A stretch of 55,357 bases of DNA from Acidobacteriota bacterium (GTDB taxonomy: Bacteria; Acidobacteriota; Thermoanaerobaculia; Thermoanaerobaculales; Thermoanaerobaculaceae). The notes under the pieces were generated by a model. That model worked only from the letters and a program-made list of their open reading frames with translations, searched no databases and was not told the origin of the DNA. The stretch covers positions 1 to 55,357 of the forward strand of contig SCRJ01000172.1 in the NCBI GenBank assembly GCA_004298115.1, given 5' to 3'. The translations under genes and the position numbers were made by a program. Below are positions 2,676-14,889 of this stretch, piece by piece. The stretch's first letter is position 1. Every line of letters starts with the position of its first letter.

Positions 2676-5402
2676 ATGGAACCCGAGAGATCCTCTGGGC
2701 GCAACCCGACGCAGACGTGGCCGGGAGGCGCGGGCGGCGGTGATCCCGGGTTCTCCCCACCTCCGCGCTGGAAGCTCGGGCGGAAGCTCGGGTCGGGCGG
2801 GCAAGCCGACGTCTGGCTCGCGCAGGACCTCGAGCTGGGCGAGTGGGTCGCGATCAAGGTCTTCCACGCGAACTTCTCGGACACCACGCGCGAGCGCCTG
2901 CGGCGCGAAGTGAGGCTCGGCCGTACCCTGCACCACCCGCACTTGGTGCGGCTGTTCGAGCTGATCGACAGCGAAGGGCGCCTCGCGGTGGCGATGGAGT
3001 GGGTGCCGGGGGGAAGCCTCGCGCAGCGCCTGGAGGGCGGGCCGCTCCCGATCGGGGACGTGGTCGCCTACGCCGATCAGACGCTGGCGGCGCTCGAGTA
3101 CCTACACGCCCAGGGGGTCGTCCACCGCGACGTGAAGCCGTCCAACCTGCTCCTCGACGAGGAGGGCCGCGTCCGGCTCGCGGACCTCGGGCTGGCGCGG
3201 CCGCTCGACGACGAGCGCGACCTGACTCAGACCGACACGGCCGTCGGCACCCCGGCGTTCATGAGTCCGGAGCAGATCCGCGGCGAGGCGCCGATCCCGG
3301 CCACCGATCTGTACGGTCTCGGCGTCACGCTGTTCCAGGTCTTGACGGGAGCGCTGCCGTTCCCCGGGAGGTCGCAGTACGAGGTTGCGACCCAGCACCT
3401 CGCGGCGCCCGTACGCGACCCCCGCGCGTTGCGGCGGGAGTGTCCGCGTTGGCTCGGGCGCTTCGTCCTGCGCCTGCTGGAGAAGAGGCCGGAGGACCGG
3501 TGGCCGGACGCGGCGGCGGCGCGGCGGGCGCTGCACCGCCGAGCCGACCTGACCTCGCCGCGGGTGCGGCGGCGCGCGGCGGTCGCGGCGGGCATCGCCC
3601 TGGGTTCGGTGGCCGTCGCGGCGTTCGTGGGCCGGGAGGCGGAGCGCGCGTGGTCGCACCCCGCCGCGGCGAGGGTGGAAGCGACCGGTCAGGAGGTCCG
3701 CGGTCTCGACGCCCGCGGCAACGTGGTGTGGCGCCGCGCGCTCGAATACCCGGTGCGCCAGGTCGAGGCGATGGACGTCCCCGGCGGCGATGGACCCGAC
3801 ACGGTCGTCACGGCATGGCCGGCGACGACCGCGCGCACGGCCGGGGGCCAGCTCTCCGATGTGGTCGTCTTCGACCGGCGCGGGGGCATCGTGACCCGCA
3901 TCCACCCCGAGGAGTTGCTGACCGGGTGGCCGTTCGAGTACCCGAAGGCGTTCGAGCCCGAGGCGAGGGTGCTCGACATCGGCAGGGGCGGCACGCCGGT
4001 GCTGCTCGTCAACGACCGCCAAAGGGGCTTCTACCCCACCGTCCTGACGGTCTACTGGCCGCGCACCGGCGTCTGGGAGCCGATCCTTTACCACCCCGGC
4101 TGGATCTATGACATCGCCGAGGTGCCCGGAACGCCGCAGCGCCTGCGCTTCGAAGGGGTCAACAACCGTTTGGGGATGTACCCGGTGGTGGGGGAGCTGA
4201 CGGTGCGGGACCCCGATCCGGCGGCGCCGCGCGCCGATCGCTACATCGATATGTCGCGGGGGCTGGTCCAACCGGTCGACGGCGGCTTCGAGCTGGAGTG
4301 GTACACCCTGCTCGACCGCGAGGGCGTCGAGCACGGCGCGCTCGAGGTCGCCGGCAACGGCGACTCGGTGCTCCGCTACCCCGGAGCGACCGTGAACCTC
4401 GACCGGTTCGGCAACCCGACGCCCGGCCCGAACCAGGGGCGAGATCTGCGGGCGATGAGAACCGTCTTCCTCGCCCGCCTCTACTGGCTGTCCTCGTACA
4501 GCCAGCCGTTCACGGCCGCGGGTGTGCGCGACATGCTGTCGAGGCTGCGCGACTCGACGCGGGCGCTGTTCGCCGAGCGCCCCTATCGGGTGGTCGCGGC
4601 CGTAGAAGGAGCGCGGGCGTTGGCCCGCGCCGGGGACACCGGCGGTGCGATCGCGCTGCTTGGGGAGGCCAGGGCCGGCGGGGGCGCGGCCGACGCGACG
4701 TACTGGCTTGCCAACCTGAAGGCGGTCGCGGGCGACCTCGCGGGCGCCCGGCGCTTGGCCCAGGAACTGGCCGACAGCGGCCGCCCGACGCGGCGCTACG
4801 ACGCGGTCCAGCTCCTGCTGCGGCTGTGCGCCGAAGAGCGCGACGGGGAGGGGTACCGCAAGGCGGTTCTGGCGCTGGGCATCTTGACCGCCGACCGAGA
4901 CTCGGCCGACAGGCTGGCCGAGGGGAGTGGTGTGCGCGCCCGGCTGTGGTGGGACGAGCTGGAGGAGTCGGACACCCGCGCCGTGTCGTCGGCGTTCGTG
5001 CCCGAGGGCGCGGCGCTGGCGTGCCTGGCGCGCTGGCGGCTCGGACGGACCGCGCCCGGCGACCCCGAGGCGATGGTCGAAGCAGAGAGGATCAACCCGG
5101 ACGCGGCGCTGCAGTGCCGCCTCGCCCGCGGGGCGGCGTTGCTCGGGCTCCGGCGGCCGCGCGACGCGGCGGCGCTGCTCGGCCAAGTCGTGACGCTGCT
5201 GCGGCCGCTCGCCGAGGACGATTTCGCCGACCTCCAGACGCTGCAGCTCGCGATGGCCGTGCACGTCACGGCGATGCTGGCCTCCGGCGACCGCGCGCAG
5301 GCGCTCGCCGAGGCGCAAACGTTGCGCCCGCAGCTGCGCCCCGGCCTGCTGCCGCGCATCCTCGTCGACGAGGTGCTGCGGGACGGCGGCGCCGCGCGGT
5401 GA
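2676..5402 (+). CDS. Membrane Ser/Thr protein kinase with extracytoplasmic sensor and helical repeats
   Basis: PknB/Hanks-type kinase of 908 aa. Kinase domain about 31-285: Gly-rich loop GRKLGSGGQADVW (36-47), catalytic Lys61 in AIKVF, HRDVKPSN at 150-157 with Asp152 and Asn157, DLG in place of DFG at 170-172, activation segment GTPAFMSPE at 191-199. A basic stretch and one membrane segment (about 301-318) follow. The remaining 590 residues would be outside the cytoplasmic membrane: first a beta-rich region reading like a propeller or PQQ-like sensor (WRRALEYPV..., about 330-600), then Ala/Leu-rich helical repeats resembling tetratricopeptides to the end. The ATG at 2676 is preferred because residues before it have no conserved content and a -10 box sits just upstream. 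It stands alone, divergent from icmF and convergent with the lipoprotein gene. The ligand and the substrates are not evident. Confidence 0.9.
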   Translation: MEPERSSGRNPTQTWPGGAGGGDPGFSPPPRWKLGRKLGSGGQADVWLAQDLELGEWVAIKVFHANFSDTTRERLRREVRLGRTLHHPHLVRLFELIDSEGRLAVAMEWVPGGSLAQRLEGGPLPIGDVVAYADQTLAALEYLHAQGVVHRDVKPSNLLLDEEGRVRLADLGLARPLDDERDLTQTDTAVGTPAFMSPEQIRGEAPIPATDLYGLGVTLFQVLTGALPFPGRSQYEVATQHLAAPVRDPRALRRECPRWLGRFVLRLLEKRPEDRWPDAAAARRALHRRADLTSPRVRRRAAVAAGIALGSVAVAAFVGREAERAWSHPAAARVEATGQEVRGLDARGNVVWRRALEYPVRQVEAMDVPGGDGPDTVVTAWPATTARTAGGQLSDVVVFDRRGGIVTRIHPEELLTGWPFEYPKAFEPEARVLDIGRGGTPVLLVNDRQRGFYPTVLTVYWPRTGVWEPILYHPGWIYDIAEVPGTPQRLRFEGVNNRLGMYPVVGELTVRDPDPAAPRADRYIDMSRGLVQPVDGGFELEWYTLLDREGVEHGALEVAGNGDSVLRYPGATVNLDRFGNPTPGPNQGRDLRAMRTVFLARLYWLSSYSQPFTAAGVRDMLSRLRDSTRALFAERPYRVVAAVEGARALARAGDTGGAIALLGEARAGGGAADATYWLANLKAVAGDLAGARRLAQELADSGRPTRRYDAVQLLLRLCAEERDGEGYRKAVLALGILTADRDSADRLAEGSGVRARLWWDELEESDTRAVSSAFVPEGAALACLARWRLGRTAPGDPEAMVEAERINPDAALQCRLARGAALLGLRRPRDAAALLGQVVTLLRPLAEDDFADLQTLQLAMAVHVTAMLASGDRAQALAEAQTLRPQLRPGLLPRILVDEVLRDGGAAR

Positions 5403-6655: not shown

Positions 6656-8263
6656 CTACCCCTCGGAGGCGGCGCGCTCGGGGGCTCCCACGACGTAGTG
6701 GCAGCCGACCGAGATCGGGTTCCGCTGCGCCGCGGCCGCGATCAGGCCAGCGGCGGTGCACCCGTGCACGAGGTCCACGAGCGCCGCCGAGATCGGCGTC
6801 GAGCGGTAGAACTCGGTGAGCCGGCCCTGCTGGTGGCGGAGGTCGGCGACGGCGCGCGCGAGGCGCTCGGGCGTGCGCACGATGCCGACGTAGTTCCACA
6901 TCGTGTGGCGCAGCGAGGACCAGTCCTGGGCGATCAGGGCGGGGTCCTCGTTGGACGGGCCGGGGACCGGCTCCCAGTCGGGGATCACGTCCGCCAGGCT
7001 CTCCGAGAGAGGGGCGCGCTGCGCGCGGCTGGCGGCGTGCTCCCCGGCGGCGAGGCCGAACGTGAGCCCTTCGAGCAGCGACGTGGAGGCCAGGCGGTTG
7101 GCCCCGTGCACCCCCGTGCAGGCGGCCTCGCCCGCGACGTACAAGCCGGGGATCGTCGTGCAGCCCGAAAGGTCGGAGACGACCCCGCCGCACGTGTAAT
7201 GCGCCGCCGGCACCACCGGGATGCGCTCGCGGCGGATGTCGATGCCGTACTCGAGGCAGTTCTCGCTGACGTTGGGGAAGTGCGCGGCGAGCTTGTCGCC
7301 GTCCTCCCCGAGGTCGAGGAAGACGCACTCGGAGTCGGTCCGGTGCAGCTCGTCCACGATCCCGCGCGCCACAACGTCGCGCGGCGCCAACTCGCCGAGG
7401 GGGTGGTGCTTGGTCATGAACCGCTCGCCCTCGCGGTTGACGAGGTGGGCGCCCGCGCCGCGCAACGCCTCGGTAATGAGGAAGCGAGGCGCCCCCGGAA
7501 CGTACAGGCAGGTTGGGTGGAACTGGATGAACTCGAGGTTGAGGAGGCGGGCGCCGGCGCGCGAGGCCATCGCGAAGCCGGAGCCGATCGAGCCGGGGTG
7601 GTTCGACGTGTGGATGTACAGGGCGCCGGCGCCGCCGGTGGCGAGCACGGTGGCCGGGGCGAGAACGGTGCAGACCCGGCTCGTGGACGCCTCGATGACG
7701 TACGCCCCGAGGCAGCGGTTGTCGAGCGCGTAGCGGTCCTCGGCGCGCCGCGACTGGTGGTGCGTCGTGAGCAGGTCGATCGCCTGGACGCCGGCGACGA
7801 TGCGGATGCCGGGCGTCCGGCGCACCTCGGCGAGGAGCGCCTGCTCGATCACCGCGCCGGTCTTGTCGGCCGCGTGCAGGATGCGCGGCACCGAGTGCGC
7901 ACCCTCGAGGGCCAGGTCGAGGCGGCCGTCGGCGGCGCGGTCGAACGGCACCGCCAGGCGTTCGACGAGCCACTCCTGCACGCAGCGGGGACCCTCCTCG
8001 GCGAGGAAGCGCGCGGCGTCGGCGAGCCCGTAGTCGGCGCCCGCGACGAGGATGTCCTTCGCCAGGAGCTCCGGCGAATCGCCCTCGCCGCGGAAGATGA
8101 TGCCGCCCTGCGCCCGCCAGGTGTTCGTCGCCGCGGGGTCGGTGGTGCGGCAGACGAGCAGCACGTCGGCGCCGGCCCGGGCGGCCGTGAGCGCCGCGGC
8201 CAGGCCGGCCACGCCGGTCCCCAGGATCAGGACGTCGCAGCGGTCGCGGTCGGCGAGCGTCAC
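6656..8263 (-). CDS. nadB: L-aspartate oxidase
   Basis: 535 aa flavoprotein that oxidises L-aspartate to iminoaspartate, first step of de novo NAD synthesis. N-terminal FAD-binding dinucleotide fold CDVLILGTGVAGLAAAL; FAD-contact region TNTWRAQGGI; active-site/substrate region of the succinate dehydrogenase/aspartate oxidase family (LEFIQFHPTCLY, HYTCGGV, GLYVAGEAACTGVHGANRLA). Length matches the family (about 530). The GTG start at 8263 overlaps the nadC stop by 4 nt (GTGA), so translation is coupled. No nadA is in the window. The C-terminal helical domain (RLTEFYRST...) is complete. Confidence 0.96.
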   Translation of the reverse strand: MTLADRDRCDVLILGTGVAGLAAALTAARAGADVLLVCRTTDPAATNTWRAQGGIIFRGEGDSPELLAKDILVAGADYGLADAARFLAEEGPRCVQEWLVERLAVPFDRAADGRLDLALEGAHSVPRILHAADKTGAVIEQALLAEVRRTPGIRIVAGVQAIDLLTTHHQSRRAEDRYALDNRCLGAYVIEASTSRVCTVLAPATVLATGGAGALYIHTSNHPGSIGSGFAMASRAGARLLNLEFIQFHPTCLYVPGAPRFLITEALRGAGAHLVNREGERFMTKHHPLGELAPRDVVARGIVDELHRTDSECVFLDLGEDGDKLAAHFPNVSENCLEYGIDIRRERIPVVPAAHYTCGGVVSDLSGCTTIPGLYVAGEAACTGVHGANRLASTSLLEGLTFGLAAGEHAASRAQRAPLSESLADVIPDWEPVPGPSNEDPALIAQDWSSLRHTMWNYVGIVRTPERLARAVADLRHQQGRLTEFYRSTPISAALVDLVHGCTAAGLIAAAAQRNPISVGCHYVVGAPERAASEG

Positions 8264-9105
8264 GGGCGCACCTTCAGGGAGAGGTCGAGCGCCGGGGCGG
8301 AGTGGGTGAGGGCGCCGACGGACGCGAAGTCCACGCCCGTTTCGGCGAAGCCGCGAACGTTTTCGAGGGTGACGCCGCCCGAGACCTCGAGCCGCGCGCG
8401 GCCGGCGACGAACGCGACGGCGCCGCGCACGGCCGCGAGATCCATGTTGTCGAGCATGATGTGTTCCACCTTGCAGGCCAGCGCCTCCTCGACCATCGCG
8501 AGGTCCGCGCACTCCACGACCAATGGCACGCCGGCGCCCCAGCGGTCGCGCACCCTCGACACCGCGGCGGTGATCGAGCCCGCGGCGGCGAGGTGCGTGT
8601 CCTTGAGCATGGCGGCGTCGAACAACCCCATGCGGTGGTTCGTGCCGCCGCCGCAGCGAACCGCGTGCTTCTCGAGGGCGCGCCAGCCGGGGGTCGTCTT
8701 GCGGGTGTCGAGGACCTTGCAGTCCGTCCCGGCGACCGCGTCCACGAACCGGCGGGTGAGGGTCGCGACGCCCGAGAGCCGCGTGACGAAGTTTAGGGCC
8801 GTACGCTCGGCGGCCAGCACCGCTCGCGCCGGGCCGGAAACGAGCGCCGCCTCGTCGCCCGGGCGGACGGCATCGCCGTCGCCCCGTAGCGCCTCGACCC
8901 GGCAACGTCCGTCCAGAAACGCGAACGCCGCGGCGAACGCGGGCGCTCCGGCGACGACGCCTGGCGCCTTGACCACGAGCGCCGCCGCGAGCGTCTCGTC
9001 CGGGCCGAACACCGCCGGGCCGGTCAGGTCCGGAAGGTCTTCGGCCAGGGCCGCTGCGAGCAGCGACGGGAGATGGCTGGCGTACGGCTCGACAAGCTCG
9101 TGCAC
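8260..9105 (-). CDS. nadC: Nicotinate-nucleotide pyrophosphorylase (quinolinate phosphoribosyltransferase)
   Basis: 281 aa. Converts quinolinate and PRPP to nicotinate mononucleotide in the NAD pathway. The signature block is intact: ERTALNF, DTRKTTPGWR, EKHAVRCGGG, NHRMGLFDAAMLKD, VECADL, IMLDNMD, EVSGGVTLENV, supplying the conserved Arg, Lys and His residues of the active site. GTG start at 9105, 9 nt after the upstream methyltransferase stop; a TAGAAT -10 box overlaps that stop and sits 6 nt before the GTG, so nadC may also have an internal leaderless promoter. Overlaps nadB by 4 nt. Confidence 0.96.
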   Translation of the reverse strand: MHELVEPYASHLPSLLAAALAEDLPDLTGPAVFGPDETLAAALVVKAPGVVAGAPAFAAAFAFLDGRCRVEALRGDGDAVRPGDEAALVSGPARAVLAAERTALNFVTRLSGVATLTRRFVDAVAGTDCKVLDTRKTTPGWRALEKHAVRCGGGTNHRMGLFDAAMLKDTHLAAAGSITAAVSRVRDRWGAGVPLVVECADLAMVEEALACKVEHIMLDNMDLAAVRGAVAFVAGRARLEVSGGVTLENVRGFAETGVDFASVGALTHSAPALDLSLKVRP

Positions 9106-9111
9106 GCCGTC

Positions 9112-9117
9112 ATTCTA
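9112..9117 (-). promoter_or_regulatory. -10-like TAGAAT 6 nt before nadC start
   Basis: TAGAAT on the minus strand (9117-9112); predicted +1 is the G of the GTG at 9105. It overlaps the stop codon of the upstream gene. No clear -35, so this is weaker than the hflX and HD sites. Confidence 0.35.
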
Positions 9118-10005
9118 GCGCCCCCCGTGGTCGAGCCGGGCCGCGATCGCCGCGATGTGATCCGGGCCGGCGCCGCAACATCCGCCCACCAGGCCGGCGC
9201 CGGCCGCGACCCACGTCGCGGCGGCGCGCGCGAACCCGGTCGGGGGAACGGGCTCCGCGGCCAGCCACGGCGAGTCCGCCGCGTGCCAGGCGTTGTTGGC
9301 GTACGCGACGAGCGGGAGCGCGGTCGAGGCGGCGATCCTGATCAGGGCCGGCAACATGTCCTCGACGGCGGTGCAGTTGACCCCGACCGCGACGACGCCG
9401 GGGATCCCGACGGCGGCCGCCGCGTCGCCGGGCTCCTCGCCCGAGAGCAGCATGCCGCGGCGGCAGGCGAAGCTCACGATCACGGGCAGGCCGGTTGCGA
9501 CGGCGGCGACGGCGGCGATGCGCGCTTCGCGCACCGTGTTGAACGTCTCGAGCAGGAGCGCGTCGGGCTGCGCCGCCGCCAGGCTGGCCGCGGTCGCCGC
9601 GTGCTCGCTCTCGAGCGTGGCGTCGTCCGGGACGAGATCCGGGCGGTAGCAGTCCTCCAGCGTCGTCTGCGAGGCGAGCACGAGCGCGTCGCGCCCGGCC
9701 GCGGCGGCGCCCTCGCGGGCGAGGCGCACCGCCAGCGCCGCGAGTTCGCCCGCACGGCTCTCGAGGCCGGCAGCGCGGAGCGCATACGGTGCCACGCGGA
9801 ACGTGGCGGCGGTGAGCGCGTCGGCGCCGGCCGCCGCGTAGTCGCGGTGCAGCGCTCTGACGGCCTCGGGGTCCTCGATGAGCGCGCCGGCGCCCCACAG
9901 GCGGCCGGCCGCCGCGACGCCCCGTCGCAACAGCTCGGAGCCCGTCGCGCCGTCGAGCACCCGCGGCCGTTCCACCAACCATGCCGTTGTCTCAGCTGGC
10001 GTCAT
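9115..10005 (-). CDS. Homocysteine S-methyltransferase family protein
   Basis: 296 aa, zinc-dependent methyltransferase barrel of the MmuM/BhmT/MetH-N type; likely transfers a methyl group from S-methylmethionine, betaine or a similar donor to homocysteine. Evidence: N-terminal VLDGATGSELLRRG, central ETFNTVREA, zinc ligands in VGVNCTAVEDM and GGCCGAGPDHI (one Cys plus a Cys pair). Length agrees with stand-alone MmuM (about 300). ATG at 10005 with GGAGAG 5 nt upstream. First of three genes with nadC and nadB; no obvious metabolic tie, though both concern cofactor and one-carbon supply. Donor cannot be told from sequence. Confidence 0.88.
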   Translation of the reverse strand: MTPAETTAWLVERPRVLDGATGSELLRRGVAAAGRLWGAGALIEDPEAVRALHRDYAAAGADALTAATFRVAPYALRAAGLESRAGELAALAVRLAREGAAAAGRDALVLASQTTLEDCYRPDLVPDDATLESEHAATAASLAAAQPDALLLETFNTVREARIAAVAAVATGLPVIVSFACRRGMLLSGEEPGDAAAAVGIPGVVAVGVNCTAVEDMLPALIRIAASTALPLVAYANNAWHAADSPWLAAEPVPPTGFARAAATWVAAGAGLVGGCCGAGPDHIAAIAARLDHGGR

Positions 10006-10036
10006 CGTCTCTCCATCCCGGCTTTCCGCTCCGCCG

Positions 10037-10066
10037 TTGACGCTGCCTCCACGACCCCCGTAGGAT
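10037..10066 (+). promoter_or_regulatory. Leaderless-type promoter of hflX
   Basis: TTGACG (10037-10042), 18-nt spacer, TAGGAT (10061-10066). The -10 box ends 7 nt before the ATG at 10074, so +1 is at or next to the start codon. It lies in the 68-nt divergent gap with the methyltransferase gene. Confidence 0.55.
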
Positions 10067-10073
10067 ACGGCAG

Positions 10074-11441
10074 ATGACGCCGAGCGGATCACGCCACGCG
10101 CCGCGACAGCAAGCGGGGAGCGGACACGGCCGGGACCGCGGTCCCCGGCGATCGCCGCGCCCGGAGGAGAACCCGGCGGCCGGGGAGACGGCGGCCGGGG
10201 CGGAGGCGCCGGCGGCAAGCCGCGCGCCGGCCGCCGCGAGGGGACGCGAGCGCGCGGTGCTGGTCGCGGTGGTGACGGGCAAGGCGGCGCGCATGGCGGT
10301 CGAATCCCACCTCGACGAGCTGGCCCAGCTCGTCGACACGGCCGGCGGGGTCGCGGTCGCCCGCATGGTGCAGGAGCGCAAGTCCCCCGATCCCGCGACG
10401 TTCATCGGCAAGGGGAAGGTCGCGGAGCTCGCTCAGCTCGCGGCGGAGCACGGCGCCAAGCTGGTCGTGTTCGACGACGACCTGTCCTCCTCCCAGGCCC
10501 GCCACCTCGACGAGGCGCTCCCCGCGGACGTCAAGGTCATCGACCGGGCCGGCGTCATCCTCGACATCTTCGCGCTACGGGCGCGCACCCGCGAGGCACA
10601 GATCCAGGTCGAGCTGGCGCAGCTCAACTACCAGATGTCGCGGCTCACGCGGCGCTGGGCCCACCTCTCGCGGCAGGCCGGCGGGATCGGGACCCGCGGT
10701 GTGGGGGAAACCCAGCTCGAGAGCGACCGCCGCGTGATCCGCCGCCGCCTCGGGCTGCTGGGCGAGCGTCTCGACGAGGTGGAGCGCGAGCGCGAGGTGC
10801 AGCGCAAGCGGCGCGCGCTGCTCCCGGCCGTGGCCCTGGTCGGGTACACGAACGCGGGCAAGAGCACGCTGTTCGAGAAGCTGACCGGCGCCGAGACGCT
10901 CGTCGAGGACCGGTTGTTCGCGACGCTCGACCCGCGCACCCGGCGCGCCGAGGTCGGCGACGGCCTCGCCGTGGCGGTCGCCGACACCGTCGGCTTCATC
11001 CGCAAGCTTCCCCACCACCTCGTGGCGTCGTTCCGCGCGACGCTCGCGGAGGCGGCGCTCGCGCAGGTCGTCGTGCACCTGGTGGACGGCTCCCACCCCG
11101 ACTGGCCCGACCAACTCGCCGTCGGGGAGGAGGTCCTCGAGTCGCTCGGCATCGACCCGAAGGGCTGCATCGTCGCGCTCAACAAGATCGACCGGCTGGA
11201 CGGCGGCCTGCCGCCCGCGCCGGTCGGCCGCGAGGTCGTCGCCATCTCGGCGCTGACCGGCCAGGGCCTCGACGCGCTGCGCGCGGCGATCGCCGCCGCC
11301 GTGCTGGCGCAGCCCGGCCTCGAGGTGTTGCGCTTCTCCGCCGACGGCGGGGAGGCGCTGCAGCGCGCGCTGCGCGACGAGATCGTCGTGGCCCGCCGCT
11401 ACTCGGAGGCGGGGATCGAGCTGGTCGTCCGCCGGCGCTGA
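10074..11441 (+). CDS. hflX: Ribosome-associated GTPase HflX
   Basis: 455 aa GTPase that splits stalled or hibernating 70S ribosomes. After a low-complexity basic/Ala-Pro extension of about 60 residues comes the HflX N-domain (PDPATFIGKGKVAEL, VFDDDLS, DRAGVILDIFALRA), the coiled linker with GGIGTRGVGETQLE, then the G domain: G1 GYTNAGKST, switch region DPRTRR, G3 DTVGFIRKLPHHL, G4 NKID, G5 ISALTGQG. All motifs are present. The long N-terminal tail is an addition to the usual 420-430 aa. Convergent with the carbonic anhydrase gene, 37 nt apart. Confidence 0.96.
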   Translation: MTPSGSRHAPRQQAGSGHGRDRGPRRSPRPEENPAAGETAAGAEAPAASRAPAAARGRERAVLVAVVTGKAARMAVESHLDELAQLVDTAGGVAVARMVQERKSPDPATFIGKGKVAELAQLAAEHGAKLVVFDDDLSSSQARHLDEALPADVKVIDRAGVILDIFALRARTREAQIQVELAQLNYQMSRLTRRWAHLSRQAGGIGTRGVGETQLESDRRVIRRRLGLLGERLDEVEREREVQRKRRALLPAVALVGYTNAGKSTLFEKLTGAETLVEDRLFATLDPRTRRAEVGDGLAVAVADTVGFIRKLPHHLVASFRATLAEAALAQVVVHLVDGSHPDWPDQLAVGEEVLESLGIDPKGCIVALNKIDRLDGGLPPAPVGREVVAISALTGQGLDALRAAIAAAVLAQPGLEVLRFSADGGEALQRALRDEIVVARRYSEAGIELVVRRR

Positions 11442-11478: not shown

Positions 11479-12093
11479 TCAGGGTTCGTTGCCGGAGTCG
11501 GGGCCGCCGCGGCTGACGTGCAGGTCGCGGAGCAGGCCGTCGCGCACCGAGAACATCCAGCCGTGCAGAGTGAGCGGCTGTCCCCGCCGCCACGCCTCGC
11601 GGACGACGTCCGTTCGCGCGAGGTTCTCGATCTGCGCCGCGACGTTGAGCTCCGCCAGGCGGTCGCCGCGCGTCGCCTCGGGCAGGGAGGAGAGCATGGC
11701 GGCGTGCTCCCGCACGAGGGCGTGGACGGGTCCCAGCCACCCGGCCAGGGGGCCGCGGTCCTCGCCGGCGAGGACCGCCTTCATGCCGCCGCAGCCGGTG
11801 TGGCCGCAGACGATGACGTGCGCGACCTTCAGGCCCTCCACGGCAAAGTACAGCGCGGCGTGGCTGTTGGGGTCGTGCGCGCCGATGAGGTTGGCAACGT
11901 TGCGGTGGACGAACACCCGACCGGGCTTGAGACCGAGCACGCGGTCGGGCGTGACGCGGCTGTCGCTGCAGCCGATCCAGAAGAAGCGCGGCGCCTGCCC
12001 CCCGGCGAGGCGGTCGAAGAAGGCCGGGTCCTCGGTGCGCGTCCAGTTGGCCCACGCCCGGTTTCTCGCGAAAAGGTCCTCGAGCTCGTCCAT
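11479..12093 (-). CDS. can: Beta-class carbonic anhydrase
   Basis: 204 aa zinc enzyme interconverting CO2 and bicarbonate in the cytoplasm. Zinc ligands and the gating dyad are visible: Cys42-x-Asp44-x-Arg46 (GCSDSR), His98 and Cys101 (GHTGCGG). The N-terminal NRAWANW and FFWIGCSDSRVTP blocks match the E. coli Can/YadF clade, about 215 aa, so it is full length. It has its own sigma-70-like promoter (TTGACT-N16-TACACT) about 70 nt upstream, almost identical to that of the P1 peptidase gene at 14.9 kb. Divergent from the lyase gene. Confidence 0.95.
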   Translation of the reverse strand: MDELEDLFARNRAWANWTRTEDPAFFDRLAGGQAPRFFWIGCSDSRVTPDRVLGLKPGRVFVHRNVANLIGAHDPNSHAALYFAVEGLKVAHVIVCGHTGCGGMKAVLAGEDRGPLAGWLGPVHALVREHAAMLSSLPEATRGDRLAELNVAAQIENLARTDVVREAWRRGQPLTLHGWMFSVRDGLLRDLHVSRGGPDSGNEP

Positions 12094-12353: not shown

Positions 12354-13724
12354 GTGAAGACCGTCATCGAGCCGTACCGGAGCCGGGTCGTGGAGCCGAT
12401 GCGCATGACGACGCGGGAGGAACGCGAGGGGTTCATCCGCGCGGCGGGGTACAACCCGTTTCTGCTGCGGGCCGAGCAGGTCCTCATCGATCTCGTCACC
12501 GACTCGGGCGTGTCGGCGCTGTCGACGAGGCAGTGGTCGGCGATGCACGGGTCGGACGAGTCGTTCACCGGCTCGCGCAGCTTCTACCGGTTCAGCGAGG
12601 CGGTGCGCGCGCTGTTCGGACACGCGTTCGTGATCCCCGCGCACCAGGGGAGGGCGGCCGAGCACCTGCTCGCGCGCGCCGTCATCCGCCCGAACGACGT
12701 GATCTTCGCCAACACCCACTTCGCCACCACCCGCGAGAACTTCGAGGCGGCCGGGGCGGAGGTGCGCGACCTGCCGATCCCGGAGGCGCTGGACCGCACC
12801 AGCCCGCACCCGTTCAAGGGGAACATCGACCTCGACAGCCTCGAGGCGGGTCTCGCCCAGGCAGGCCGTCGGGCGCGCATGGTGGTCCTGACCGTCACCG
12901 ACAACTCCCGCGGGGGACAGCCGGTGAGCATGGCCAACGTCCGCGGCGCGCGGGAGATCTGCCGCCGCCACGGCGTGCCGCTGTGGCTCGACGCCGCACG
13001 CTTCGCCGAGAACTGCTACCTCGTCAAGGTGCGGGAGGCGGAGTTCGCGGCGCGCACGCCGCGGGAGATCGCCGGCGAGCTGTTTGCCCTCACCGACGGC
13101 GTCTTCATGAGCCTCAAGAAGGACGCCCTCGGCAACACCGGGGGGCTGATCACGCTCGACGACGAGGTGTGGGCCGAGGCGATTCGCGTCCAGCTCCTGG
13201 CCAGCGAGGGGATCCCCACGGCCGGCGGCCTCGCCGGCCGCGACCTCGAGGCGCTCGCCGCCGCGCTGGACGAGATGCTCGACGAGGACTACCTCACCTA
13301 TCGCGTCGCCTCGACAAGGCGCCTCGGCGAGCAGATCCAGGCGGCCGGCGTGCCGGTCGTCACCCCTTTCGGAGCGCACGCGGTCTACGTCGACGGGCGG
13401 GCGTTCTGCCCGCACCTCCCGGACGAGCGGCTGCCCGCGTGGTCGCTGTCGGTCGCGCTGTACGTCCACTCCGGCGTGCGCACCTGGGAGACGGGGAACG
13501 TCATGCAGGGGCGGCTGGACCCGGCCTCGGGCGCGTGGCGCTGGCCCGACCTCGACCTGATGCGTCTCGCCATCCCGCGCCGCGTGTACAGCCAGAGCCA
13601 CCTCGACTACGCCGCCGAGGCGCTCGTCGAGCTGTTCGAACGGCGCTCGTCGGTGCGGGGCCTGCGCTTCGTCTACCGGCCCGCGACGCTGGCGCAGTTC
13701 GTCGCCACGTTCGAGCCGGCGTGA
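12354..13724 (+). CDS. Tryptophanase/tyrosine phenol-lyase family PLP lyase with altered active site
   Basis: 456 aa, colinear with Citrobacter tyrosine phenol-lyase (TPL) without gaps over at least the first 130 residues. PLP features are present: HQGR (97-100), GGQPVSMAN, LDAARFAEN with the cofactor Asp, Schiff-base Lys in SLKKD, IPRRVYS Arg. Residues that define phenol chemistry are not: position 71, catalytic Tyr in TPL and TnaA, is Phe (GSDESFTGS); position 124, Thr in TPL, is Ala (HFATTR); the Arg of TPL VRSMERG is Thr (VRTWETG). It also lacks the tryptophanase-typical residues there. So the fold is certain but the reaction (beta-elimination or another PLP reaction, on which amino acid) is open. 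GTG start at 12354 with GAGGGGG about 6 nt upstream. Single gene, convergent with the P1 peptidase. Confidence 0.88.
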   Translation: MKTVIEPYRSRVVEPMRMTTREEREGFIRAAGYNPFLLRAEQVLIDLVTDSGVSALSTRQWSAMHGSDESFTGSRSFYRFSEAVRALFGHAFVIPAHQGRAAEHLLARAVIRPNDVIFANTHFATTRENFEAAGAEVRDLPIPEALDRTSPHPFKGNIDLDSLEAGLAQAGRRARMVVLTVTDNSRGGQPVSMANVRGAREICRRHGVPLWLDAARFAENCYLVKVREAEFAARTPREIAGELFALTDGVFMSLKKDALGNTGGLITLDDEVWAEAIRVQLLASEGIPTAGGLAGRDLEALAAALDEMLDEDYLTYRVASTRRLGEQIQAAGVPVVTPFGAHAVYVDGRAFCPHLPDERLPAWSLSVALYVHSGVRTWETGNVMQGRLDPASGAWRWPDLDLMRLAIPRRVYSQSHLDYAAEALVELFERRSSVRGLRFVYRPATLAQFVATFEPA

Positions 13725-13746: not shown

Positions 13747-14889
13747 CTACTCGGCGAGGGCGTGATGGCGGCGGAGGATCTCGAGCACCCGTTCGATCGG
13801 GAGCGCCTCGGTGGTGTGGCCCTGGAAGCCGCGGGTGGTCGTGGCGGTGAAGAGCGAGTCGAGGACCGCCTCCTCCGTCGCCTCGACGGTCGCGAGGAAG
13901 ATCGGTGAGAGGTCGTCGTCCGCCAGCACCGGGGCGCTCCTCACGCCGCGCGCGTCGTTGGCGACGCGGCACCGCGGGTTGGCGGTGAACGCGATCGCGT
14001 AGTCGCCGCTCCCGTTGGCGGCAAAGCCGCCGACGCGCGCCAGTCCCATCGGCATGCGCGCCGCGATCCGCCCGAGCTGGCGGGCGTCAACGGGCGCGTC
14101 GGTGGCGATCACGACCATGCACGAGCCGCGCTCGGGGGCGGCGAGCTCCCGCTCGAACGAGTAGCGACCCAGCTCGACGCCCACCGGGACGCCCGCGATC
14201 GTGAGCACACCGCCGAAGTTGGTCTGCACGAGGACACCGACGGTCCAACCCCCGAGGGCCGGCGGCAGCGTGCGCGAGGCGGTGCCGATGCCGCCCTTCC
14301 AGCCCAGGCATCTCGTTCCGGTGCCGGCTCCGACGCTTCCCTCGGCGACCGGGCCCGCCGCGGCGGCGGCGATCGCGGCCAGGAGCTCCTTGCGCCCCAC
14401 CGGTCGCTTGCGGATGTCGGAGAGGTAGCCGTCGTTGCACTCGCCGACCACGGGGTTGACCGACCCGACCTCGGCGTTGCCCGGCTGTGCGAGCGACCAC
14501 TCGGCAAGAGCGTCCGCCACCCTCCACGCGCTCAGGGTGCCGGTCAGCGCGATCGGCGTCTCCAGGGTGCCGAGCGTGGCGACCTGGGTCGTCCCGGTGA
14601 GCTTGCCGAAGCCGTTCCCCACGTACACCGCGGCCGGGACCTTCTCCTGGAACACGTTCCCTGGGTGGGGGAGGATCACCGTGACGCCGGTGCGGAGGTC
14701 GTCCCCGACGGCCACGGTCGCCTGGCCCACGCGAACGCCCTCGACGTCCGTGATCGCGTCGAGCGGCCCGGCCGGGAGGACCCCGGTGACGACACCCAGC
14801 TGCCGGGCCCGCGGGCGCGGCTCCGGGGCGGACGAAACGGCCGCGGCCAGCGCGACCGCTGCGACGGTCAGGACGAGCGACGGAGCCAT
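13747..14889 (-). CDS. P1 family (S58) aminopeptidase, DmpA/BapA type
   Basis: 380 aa self-processing N-terminal nucleophile hydrolase of the DmpA / beta-peptidyl aminopeptidase family. A signal peptide (MAPSLVLTVAAVALAAAVSSA) indicates export to the periplasm. Family blocks: AITDVEGVRVGQ, GVTVILPHP, VGNGFGKLTG, VNPVVGECNDGYL, GAGTGTRCLGWKGGIG, and the cleavage/nucleophile site Gly255-Ser256 in ERGSCMVVIATDAP; Ser256 would become the N-terminal nucleophile after autocleavage. Length fits the family (about 370). Its promoter is nearly the same as that of the carbonic anhydrase gene, with a perfect palindrome at the predicted +1. Natural substrates (D-, beta- or L-amino peptides) cannot be deduced. 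Confidence 0.9.
   Translation of the reverse strand: MAPSLVLTVAAVALAAAVSSAPEPRPRARQLGVVTGVLPAGPLDAITDVEGVRVGQATVAVGDDLRTGVTVILPHPGNVFQEKVPAAVYVGNGFGKLTGTTQVATLGTLETPIALTGTLSAWRVADALAEWSLAQPGNAEVGSVNPVVGECNDGYLSDIRKRPVGRKELLAAIAAAAAGPVAEGSVGAGTGTRCLGWKGGIGTASRTLPPALGGWTVGVLVQTNFGGVLTIAGVPVGVELGRYSFERELAAPERGSCMVVIATDAPVDARQLGRIAARMPMGLARVGGFAANGSGDYAIAFTANPRCRVANDARGVRSAPVLADDDLSPIFLATVEATEEAVLDSLFTATTTRGFQGHTTEALPIERVLEILRRHHALAE

Follow-up and report, generated by a model that had tools for sequence, protein, structure and literature searches.

Natural replacement of the catalytic tyrosine and its surrounding pocket in a clade of tryptophanase-related proteins from Acidobacteriota

Point mutants and structures have led to the view that Tyr71 of tyrosine phenol-lyase (TPL) and of tryptophanase acts as the general acid of the reaction. 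What does a protein of this family do when phenylalanine occupies that position? The question is raised by an open reading frame in a draft genome of the family Thermoanaerobaculaceae (Acidobacteriota; GCA_004298115.1, referred to as G000, 203 contigs), located in the window, i.e., the whole stretch of 55,357 nucleotides of contig SCRJ01000172.1 that was analyzed. According to the original prediction, the protein lacks Tyr71, Thr124 and Arg381, retains its PLP-binding residues, and either acts on another amino acid through a different PLP activity or performs the same chemistry with another acid.

The start codon of this frame lies behind GAGGGG, and the frame contains no internal stops and has a GC3 of 0.96 (Table 1). 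Against the tryptophanase subfamily model PRK13238 (NF009709), the protein scored 556.4 bits and passed the cut-off of 285; for comparison, the ordinary-type paralogue of the same genome scored 652.5 bits and E. coli TnaA 756.4 bits. It also passed Beta_elim_lyase (PF01212; 210.3 bits, Pfam gathering cut-off 27) and remained below the cut-off of the TPL model TIGR02618 (491 bits, cut-off 720.7). Scores against the tryptophanase equivalogs TIGR02617 and NF053783 were 423.3 and 448.2 bits, compared with cut-offs of 825.8 and 750, and the ordinary-type paralogue, with 490.1 and 555.3 bits, was below both as well. Because this paralogue also falls short, the equivalog cut-offs do not separate the two proteins, and we dropped them as proof that the protein is not a tryptophanase. 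The predicted fold had a mean pLDDT of 89.7 (32-row alignment), and in a structure comparison of this model the best 22 PDB rows were all TPL or tryptophanase, with Z scores of 50.0-55.9. The protein is thus a full-length PLP enzyme of the tryptophanase fold in which the cofactor residues are present.

Table 1. Coordinates of the tryptophanase-related gene, of selected codons within it and of the adjacent genes in the window
Feature	Position	Strand	Remarks
Phe71/Gln448 tryptophanase paralogue gene	12354..13724	+	GTG start, 456 aa; PRK13238 556 bits, Beta_elim_lyase 210 bits
Phe71 codon	12564..12566	+	place of Tyr71 (TPL) / Tyr74 (E. coli TnaA); reaches into the site of the neighbouring subunit
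Ala124 codon	12723..12725	+	Asp137 in E. coli tryptophanase, Thr124 in TPL
Asp183 codon (TPL 184)	12900..12902	+	clade-specific; adjoins the conserved Asn185
Lys256 codon (TPL Lys257)	13119..13121	+	PLP Schiff-base lysine, kept
Ile287 codon (TPL 288)	13212..13214	+	Phe in tryptophanase
Ala290 codon (TPL Tyr291 / E. coli Tyr307)	13221..13223	+	second trans tyrosine lost, according to the alignment and an excerpt of PMC2770544
Trp378 codon (TPL Met379)	13485..13487	+	Val/Cys in tryptophanase; clade-specific bulky residue
Thr380 codon (TPL Arg381)	13491..13493	+	mostly Ile in tryptophanase
Arg404 codon	13563..13565	+	arginine for the substrate alpha-carboxylate, kept
Gln448 codon (TPL Phe448, E. 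coli His463)	13695..13697	+	clade-specific
Pro_CA-type carbonic anhydrase	11479-12093	-	divergent, in front of the 12354-13724 gene
S58-family peptidase	13747-14889	-	convergent, 22 bases behind the 12354-13724 gene; Pfam

We examined the active site in TPL numbering, using Erwinia TPL (1c7g) as the reference, to which the protein aligns without gaps up to about residue 171. On this alignment, Phe occupies residue 71 and Ala residue 124, and the protein's own T380 falls on Arg381, as had been predicted. The PLP-binding residues described as intact are likewise found (Q98, R100, E103, F123, N185, D214, R217, K256, K257, R404 and F449), and T49 and S51 are also kept. The pocket consists of F71, A124, D184, S285, I288, A291, W379, T381 and Q448, where E. 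coli tryptophanase has Y74, D137, S197, Gln (at 285), F304, Y307, V394, I396 and H463, respectively; the differences from tryptophanase include Tyr291 to Ala, His448 to Gln, Phe288 to Ile, Val or Cys379 to Trp, and Asn184 to Asp. Thus, the Tyr74/Tyr307 pair of TnaA, which is Tyr and Tyr in all 191 tryptophanase-type rows, has become Phe and Ala, and its indole-holding Asp137/His463 pair has become Ala and Gln. Compared with TPL, Tyr71, Tyr291, Thr124, Met379, Arg381 and Phe448 are all replaced, the phenol-binding Thr124 and Arg381 by Ala and Thr and Phe448 by Gln. Trp379 and Gln448 would face the pocket, given their position in the TPL numbering. As judged from the alignment, the side chains responsible for holding and protonating indole or phenol have been replaced as a set, whereas those for PLP and the alpha-carboxylate are untouched.

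The significance attached to the three losses in the original prediction stands for Tyr71 and not for the other two. Among the 191 tryptophanase-type rows, which were sorted by Asp124, none has Arg381 (I in 164, V in 15, L in 10 and T in 2), so that with Asp and mostly Ile at these places in ordinary tryptophanases, the losses at 124 and 381 are not special. They were misjudged because the comparison had been made with TPL alone, while the nearest kin of the protein are tryptophanases.

To see how unusual the change at residue 71 is, we surveyed 250 rows, consisting of 228 single chains (one partial) and 11 fused proteins each cut in two, with duplicates dropped; because the rows were drawn from 80 loci and part of the further places listed, further exceptions may exist. 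Tyr71 is kept in 216 of the 228 single chains. It is accompanied by Tyr291 in 215 and also present in the partial row, and the other 12 have Phe71 together with Ala or Gly291, so that no single-chain row in this survey has lost Tyr71 alone. These 12 rows are also, gaps aside, the only ones in which residue 124 is neither Asp nor Thr and residue 448 neither His nor Phe. Ten of them, including the protein from the window, form a clade, in which no member has a Tyr at 71 or 291. F71, T72, D184, S285, W379, Q448, K257 and R404 are invariant in the ten, and the more variable positions are A124 (nine, Ser in one), I288 (eight, Val in two), A291 (nine, Gly in one) and T381 (eight, Val in one and Ser in one). 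Conservation of Phe71, Ala124 and Thr381 in the clade, which had been proposed as a check on the prediction, is therefore largely observed, and because Phe71 recurs in all ten members, it is neither chance nor a sequencing error. We also considered, and set aside, the possibility that TPL position 324 supplies a new arginine for the substrate: it is Arg in eight members and Ala in two, and Arg also occurs in 5 of the 216 Tyr71 rows. Among the matches listed from the open-access literature, none described a stand-alone tryptophanase or TPL that lacks the catalytic Tyr.

The remaining two Phe71 rows belong to a second, distant group of stand-alone proteins from two genomes of one genus (L039:4962-6383 on the minus strand, and L040, with a frame ending at 3045). 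They have Phe71, Ala291, Glu124, Asn448 and Ser49, and residues 379-382 are deleted, resembling a deletion reported for domains embedded in polyketide synthases (PKSs).

The position of these residues relative to the subunit interface is informative. We take Tyr-72 of P. vulgaris tryptophanase to be the same residue as E. coli Tyr74 and TPL Tyr71. The partner chain of the dimer contributes this Tyr-72, which is held to donate a proton to C3 of indole (PMC11301627, excerpt), and in the E. coli enzyme, hydrogen bonds are reported to run from Tyr74 and Tyr307 of one subunit to the PLP phosphate of its neighbor (PMC2770544, excerpt). Based on the alignment, Tyr74 and Tyr307 correspond to TPL residues 71 and 291. 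We accordingly distinguished a cis set (124, 184, 379, 381 and 448) from a trans set contributed by the partner chain (71, 288 and 291). Within the clade, identity was 0.90 in the trans loops, 0.89 in the cis segments and 0.71 in the rest of the protein, with segment limits chosen by us.

A natural dissection of the two sets is provided by fused, double-length TPL-like proteins of about 890-970 aa in the host's class (L027, L028, L029 and L154-L161; for example, L156:5318-7984 on the plus strand and the L027 frame ending at 7960). Based on 40-44% identity and an open frame, 16 full-length and 4 partial fused proteins were counted among 148 genomes, of which 11 were read; no fused TPL was found among the matches listed from the open-access literature. 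In the N-half, the PLP lysine is Gln (Lys257 lost) and Gln98 and Arg404 are missing, while Y71, L288 and Y291 are kept. The C-half carries the PLP set together with T124/M379/R381/F448, the TPL signature, whereas its residue 71 is P, A or C and its residue 291 is D. Identity to the TPL consensus in all 11 proteins read was 0.87 (trans) and 0.29 (cis) for the N-half and 0.33 (trans) and 0.82 (cis) for the C-half. Because the halves show reverse patterns of loss, they support the cis/trans division and add residue 288 to the trans set. The didomain thus resembles a dimer whose two chains were joined into one, leaving a single composite active site. In its catalytic C-half, whose trans residues are supplied by the other half, the identity of the trans loops was 0.73 versus 0.75 in the rest, indicating that trans loops drift when they are not needed. 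In the clade, both the cis and the trans parts have changed and yet are conserved, unlike the drifting loops of the didomain, and we therefore read it as carrying a complete new composite site in a putative homo-oligomer.

To place the clade, we constructed trees from which the signature columns had been removed. In the first tree (98 of 156 rows, seven signature columns removed), the clade, of which nine rows were then known, had an SH-aLRT support of 100 and grouped (91) with 16 tryptophanases, most of them from the same family. In the second tree (40 of 165 rows, ten signature columns removed, with bootstrap), the ten members were supported by 100/100, as was their grouping with 14 tryptophanases, 11 of which came from the host's family. 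Since trees without the signature columns place the clade with tryptophanases of mostly the same family, it represents a tryptophanase duplicate, and we infer that the duplication arose near the base of the host's family.

Members of the clade were found in at least 9 of the 148 genomes of the host's class, eight of them in the host's family, where six of the nine genus members have it, and the other in a sister family. The member at locus L063 is 87% identical to the protein. The tenth member occurs in another class of the phylum (G167). Its 74% identity, the unrelated genes around it and its lower GC3 suggest that it was probably acquired by transfer; contamination was not favored as its source, with a contig GC3 of 0.57-0.75 compared with mostly 0.9 or more in the window. 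Phyla beyond Acidobacteriota were covered by a single lossy scan, and the three members that it found belong to these ten. A tryptophanase-type paralogue, verified at its residues in each case, is likewise encoded in all ten genomes, and in every genome it is on a different contig from the clade gene. The paralogue in the source genome is 62% identical to the protein and, by its signature residues, presumably an ordinary tryptophanase. The dN/dS ratio (Nei-Gojobori) was 0.10-0.32 for 9 clade pairs analyzed out of 45 possible, the widest of which approach saturation at synonymous sites; three pairs of the ordinary paralogue gave 0.12-0.16. The clade is under purifying selection.

What could such an enzyme do? 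We consider it highly likely that its function is distinct from those of both tryptophanase and TPL. The monophyly of this selected paralogue, the changes in both halves of its pocket and the retention of an ordinary-type tryptophanase support, at the level of sequence, the part of the original prediction in which another amino acid is the target of a different PLP activity. On balance, we lean toward a homo-oligomer of the aromatic-lyase fold with a new activity, lacking both the cross-interface Tyr71/Tyr291 pair and the ring pocket; its substrate would be a small, non-aromatic amino acid, perhaps one to which no enzyme has been assigned. For the reaction itself, our leading proposal, to which we give about an even chance, is that of a neofunctionalised tryptophanase duplicate carrying out beta-elimination or beta-replacement, perhaps at a C-S bond. 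Considered separately, a beta-elimination or replacement with a good leaving group is an evenly balanced call, and sulfur as that leaving group is a tentative suggestion. The protein, which is probably homo-oligomeric, would bind PLP and form the external aldimine and then the quinonoid of a small amino acid. A beta-substituent able to leave without a proton donor, most likely sulfur, would then be eliminated or exchanged. This would correspond to a C-S lyase or beta-synthase, with a cysteine-type substrate passing through aminoacrylate to pyruvate and ammonia. Phe71, Ala124, Ile288 and Ala291 would make the pocket more apolar, Trp379 would occupy part of it, and Gln448 would be its new polar side chain.

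This proposal draws on several mutants and relatives. The positions of Ala and Gln in our protein presumably correspond to Asp133 and His458 of P. vulgaris tryptophanase. In that enzyme, according to an excerpt of PMC11301627, D133A has undetectable activity on Trp while losing only about 2-fold on S-ethylcysteine, and H458A retains 1.6% of kcat on Trp while its kcat on S-ethylcysteine is doubled. The phenol OH in TPL is reported to be held by Thr124 and Arg381 (excerpts of PMC11301627 and PMC9262865), both of which are missing here. Replacement of Tyr71 in TPL abolishes activity on Tyr, with effects that vary with the substrate (excerpts of PMC3870968 and PMC5054688). A similar dependence on the substrate is described for changes at Tyr71 and Arg381, along with PKS-embedded domains of the family that are without these functions, one modelled domain having Arg at 71 and a deletion being found at 381 (PMC3870968, excerpt). 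SH domains are described as cysteine or thiocysteine lyases (PMC8479088, excerpt). The SH domain 9cen, a thiocysteine lyase from polyketide synthases of the leinamycin family, has the same fold as our model (Z 39.2), though at only 30% identity. Like the PKS domains, our protein is without Tyr71; in contrast to them, it has Phe at this position, W-E-T-G is present and there is no gap in the 381 region. Furthermore, the SH domain is part of an assembly line, whereas the protein studied here is a stand-alone 456-aa ORF outside any PKS module.

There is also evidence against the proposal. E. coli Y74F keeps 0.2 of 45.7 U/mg on S-(o-nitrophenyl)cysteine, which has a good leaving group, a loss that the authors attributed to weaker PLP affinity (PMC2770544, excerpt), and the activity of Y71F TPL on other substrates is also reported to be decreased (PMC5054688, excerpt). 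The Y74F result indicates that loss of the tyrosine is costly for C-S elimination as well, at least without compensation, and the clade must have overcome weaker PLP binding in some other way. The structures of both laboratory forms (Y71F TPL, 2ycn, Z 55.6; Y74F E. coli tryptophanase, 2v1p, Z 44.2) match our model and carry the same single substitution; they are, however, engineered point mutants with an otherwise normal pocket, whereas seven further signature positions are naturally changed in our protein.

If the true reaction had no leaving group in need of a proton, the absence of Tyr71 could instead reflect different PLP chemistry on the same scaffold, such as retro-aldol cleavage, transamination, racemisation or beta-decarboxylation. 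Fold type I is versatile, the Ala/Gln pocket points to no leaving group, and threonine aldolases (Z 28.9-34.5) make up most of the rows that come next after the aromatic lyases and the SH domain in the structure comparison. We nevertheless regard this explanation as unlikely, if credible, given that the sequence still scores as tryptophanase subfamily, that K257, N185, R404, R217 and F449 are kept, and that no aldolase or aminotransferase residue was identified in the protein. The missing tyrosines might also be borrowed, the Phe71 chain pairing with an ordinary tryptophanase so that a mixed dimer would contain one changed and one damped site. The tryptophanase-type paralogue in all ten genomes and the division of the two parts between the halves of the fused didomain would fit such a partner subunit. 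However, the trans loops of the clade are strongly conserved rather than drifting, the G167 tryptophanase is only 48% identical to our protein, and the two genes are on separate contigs throughout, which makes this arrangement improbable.

Retention of the original activity appears more doubtful still. Tryptophanase is the highest-scoring named family, and Arg100, whose P. vulgaris counterpart Arg-101 is reported to touch the C3 group of a bound analogue (PMC11301627, excerpt), is kept, both of which would fit a Trp or Tyr lyase with a different acid. Yet the Asp and His used for Trp and the Thr124, Arg381 and Phe448 used for Tyr (roles from excerpts of PMC11301627 and PMC9262865) are all absent, none of the ten members has a Tyr at 71 or 291, and a tryptophanase-type enzyme is already encoded in the genome. 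As the indole-holding Asp/His pair is gone as well, the option of the same chemistry with another acid, the other branch of the original prediction, is not favored, and we rate it as quite improbable. Least probable is that the gene is a decaying copy with no catalytic role. Pseudoenzymes typically lose catalytic residues, but the frame is open in all ten members, several of the new residues are invariant while the PLP set is kept, and the gene was retained after its probable transfer to another class; on the dN/dS values of the nine pairs, we rejected a pseudogene.

Among known systems, the protein has fold, length, and PLP and carboxylate residues in common with TnaA (EC 4.1.99.1), and tryptophanases are its sister group in the trees. 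With TPL (EC 4.1.99.2), it shares the fold (Z 48-56), the ungapped N-terminal alignment and 41-43% identity. Natural evolution has here made the Tyr71 change along with those in the remaining pocket and has kept it, and the clade offers a ready series for studying the conversion of an aromatic lyase to another specificity. There is also a consequence for annotation. To judge by its residues, the protein very probably makes no indole. Two other clade members scored also pass the curated tryptophanase subfamily model, so that indole production would be over-predicted from such annotation.

We also investigated whether gene context could guide the search for a substrate, and rejected it, since no partner is conserved across loci. 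An S58-like protein (by BLASTP; Pfam was applied only to the 13747-14889 copy) lies downstream and convergent in six of the nine loci compared, with two genes in between in one of them. One further compared contig ends about 340 bases behind the orthologue, and the other loci have unrelated neighbors. Three genus members have aminotransferase and CN-hydrolase genes upstream, and three have a DUF4442 gene (by similarity; the families were named on L041 only). In the source genome, neither the aminotransferase nor a short DUF4442 match shares a contig with 12354-13724, so this link is not kept.

Elsewhere in the window, a run of minus-strand genes (6656-10218) encodes an FAD_binding_2 protein, a quinolinate phosphoribosyltransferase (NadC, 8260-9105) and a homocysteine S-methyltransferase family protein (9115-10218); by context, the FAD_binding_2 protein would be NadB-like. 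Finally, neighboring pairs of tryptophanase-type and TPL-type genes were observed on contigs of Planctomycetota, Chlorobiota, Bacteroidota and Bacillota (L097, L112, L115, L126, L132, L137 and L117, and L094, where the two are about 2 kb apart).
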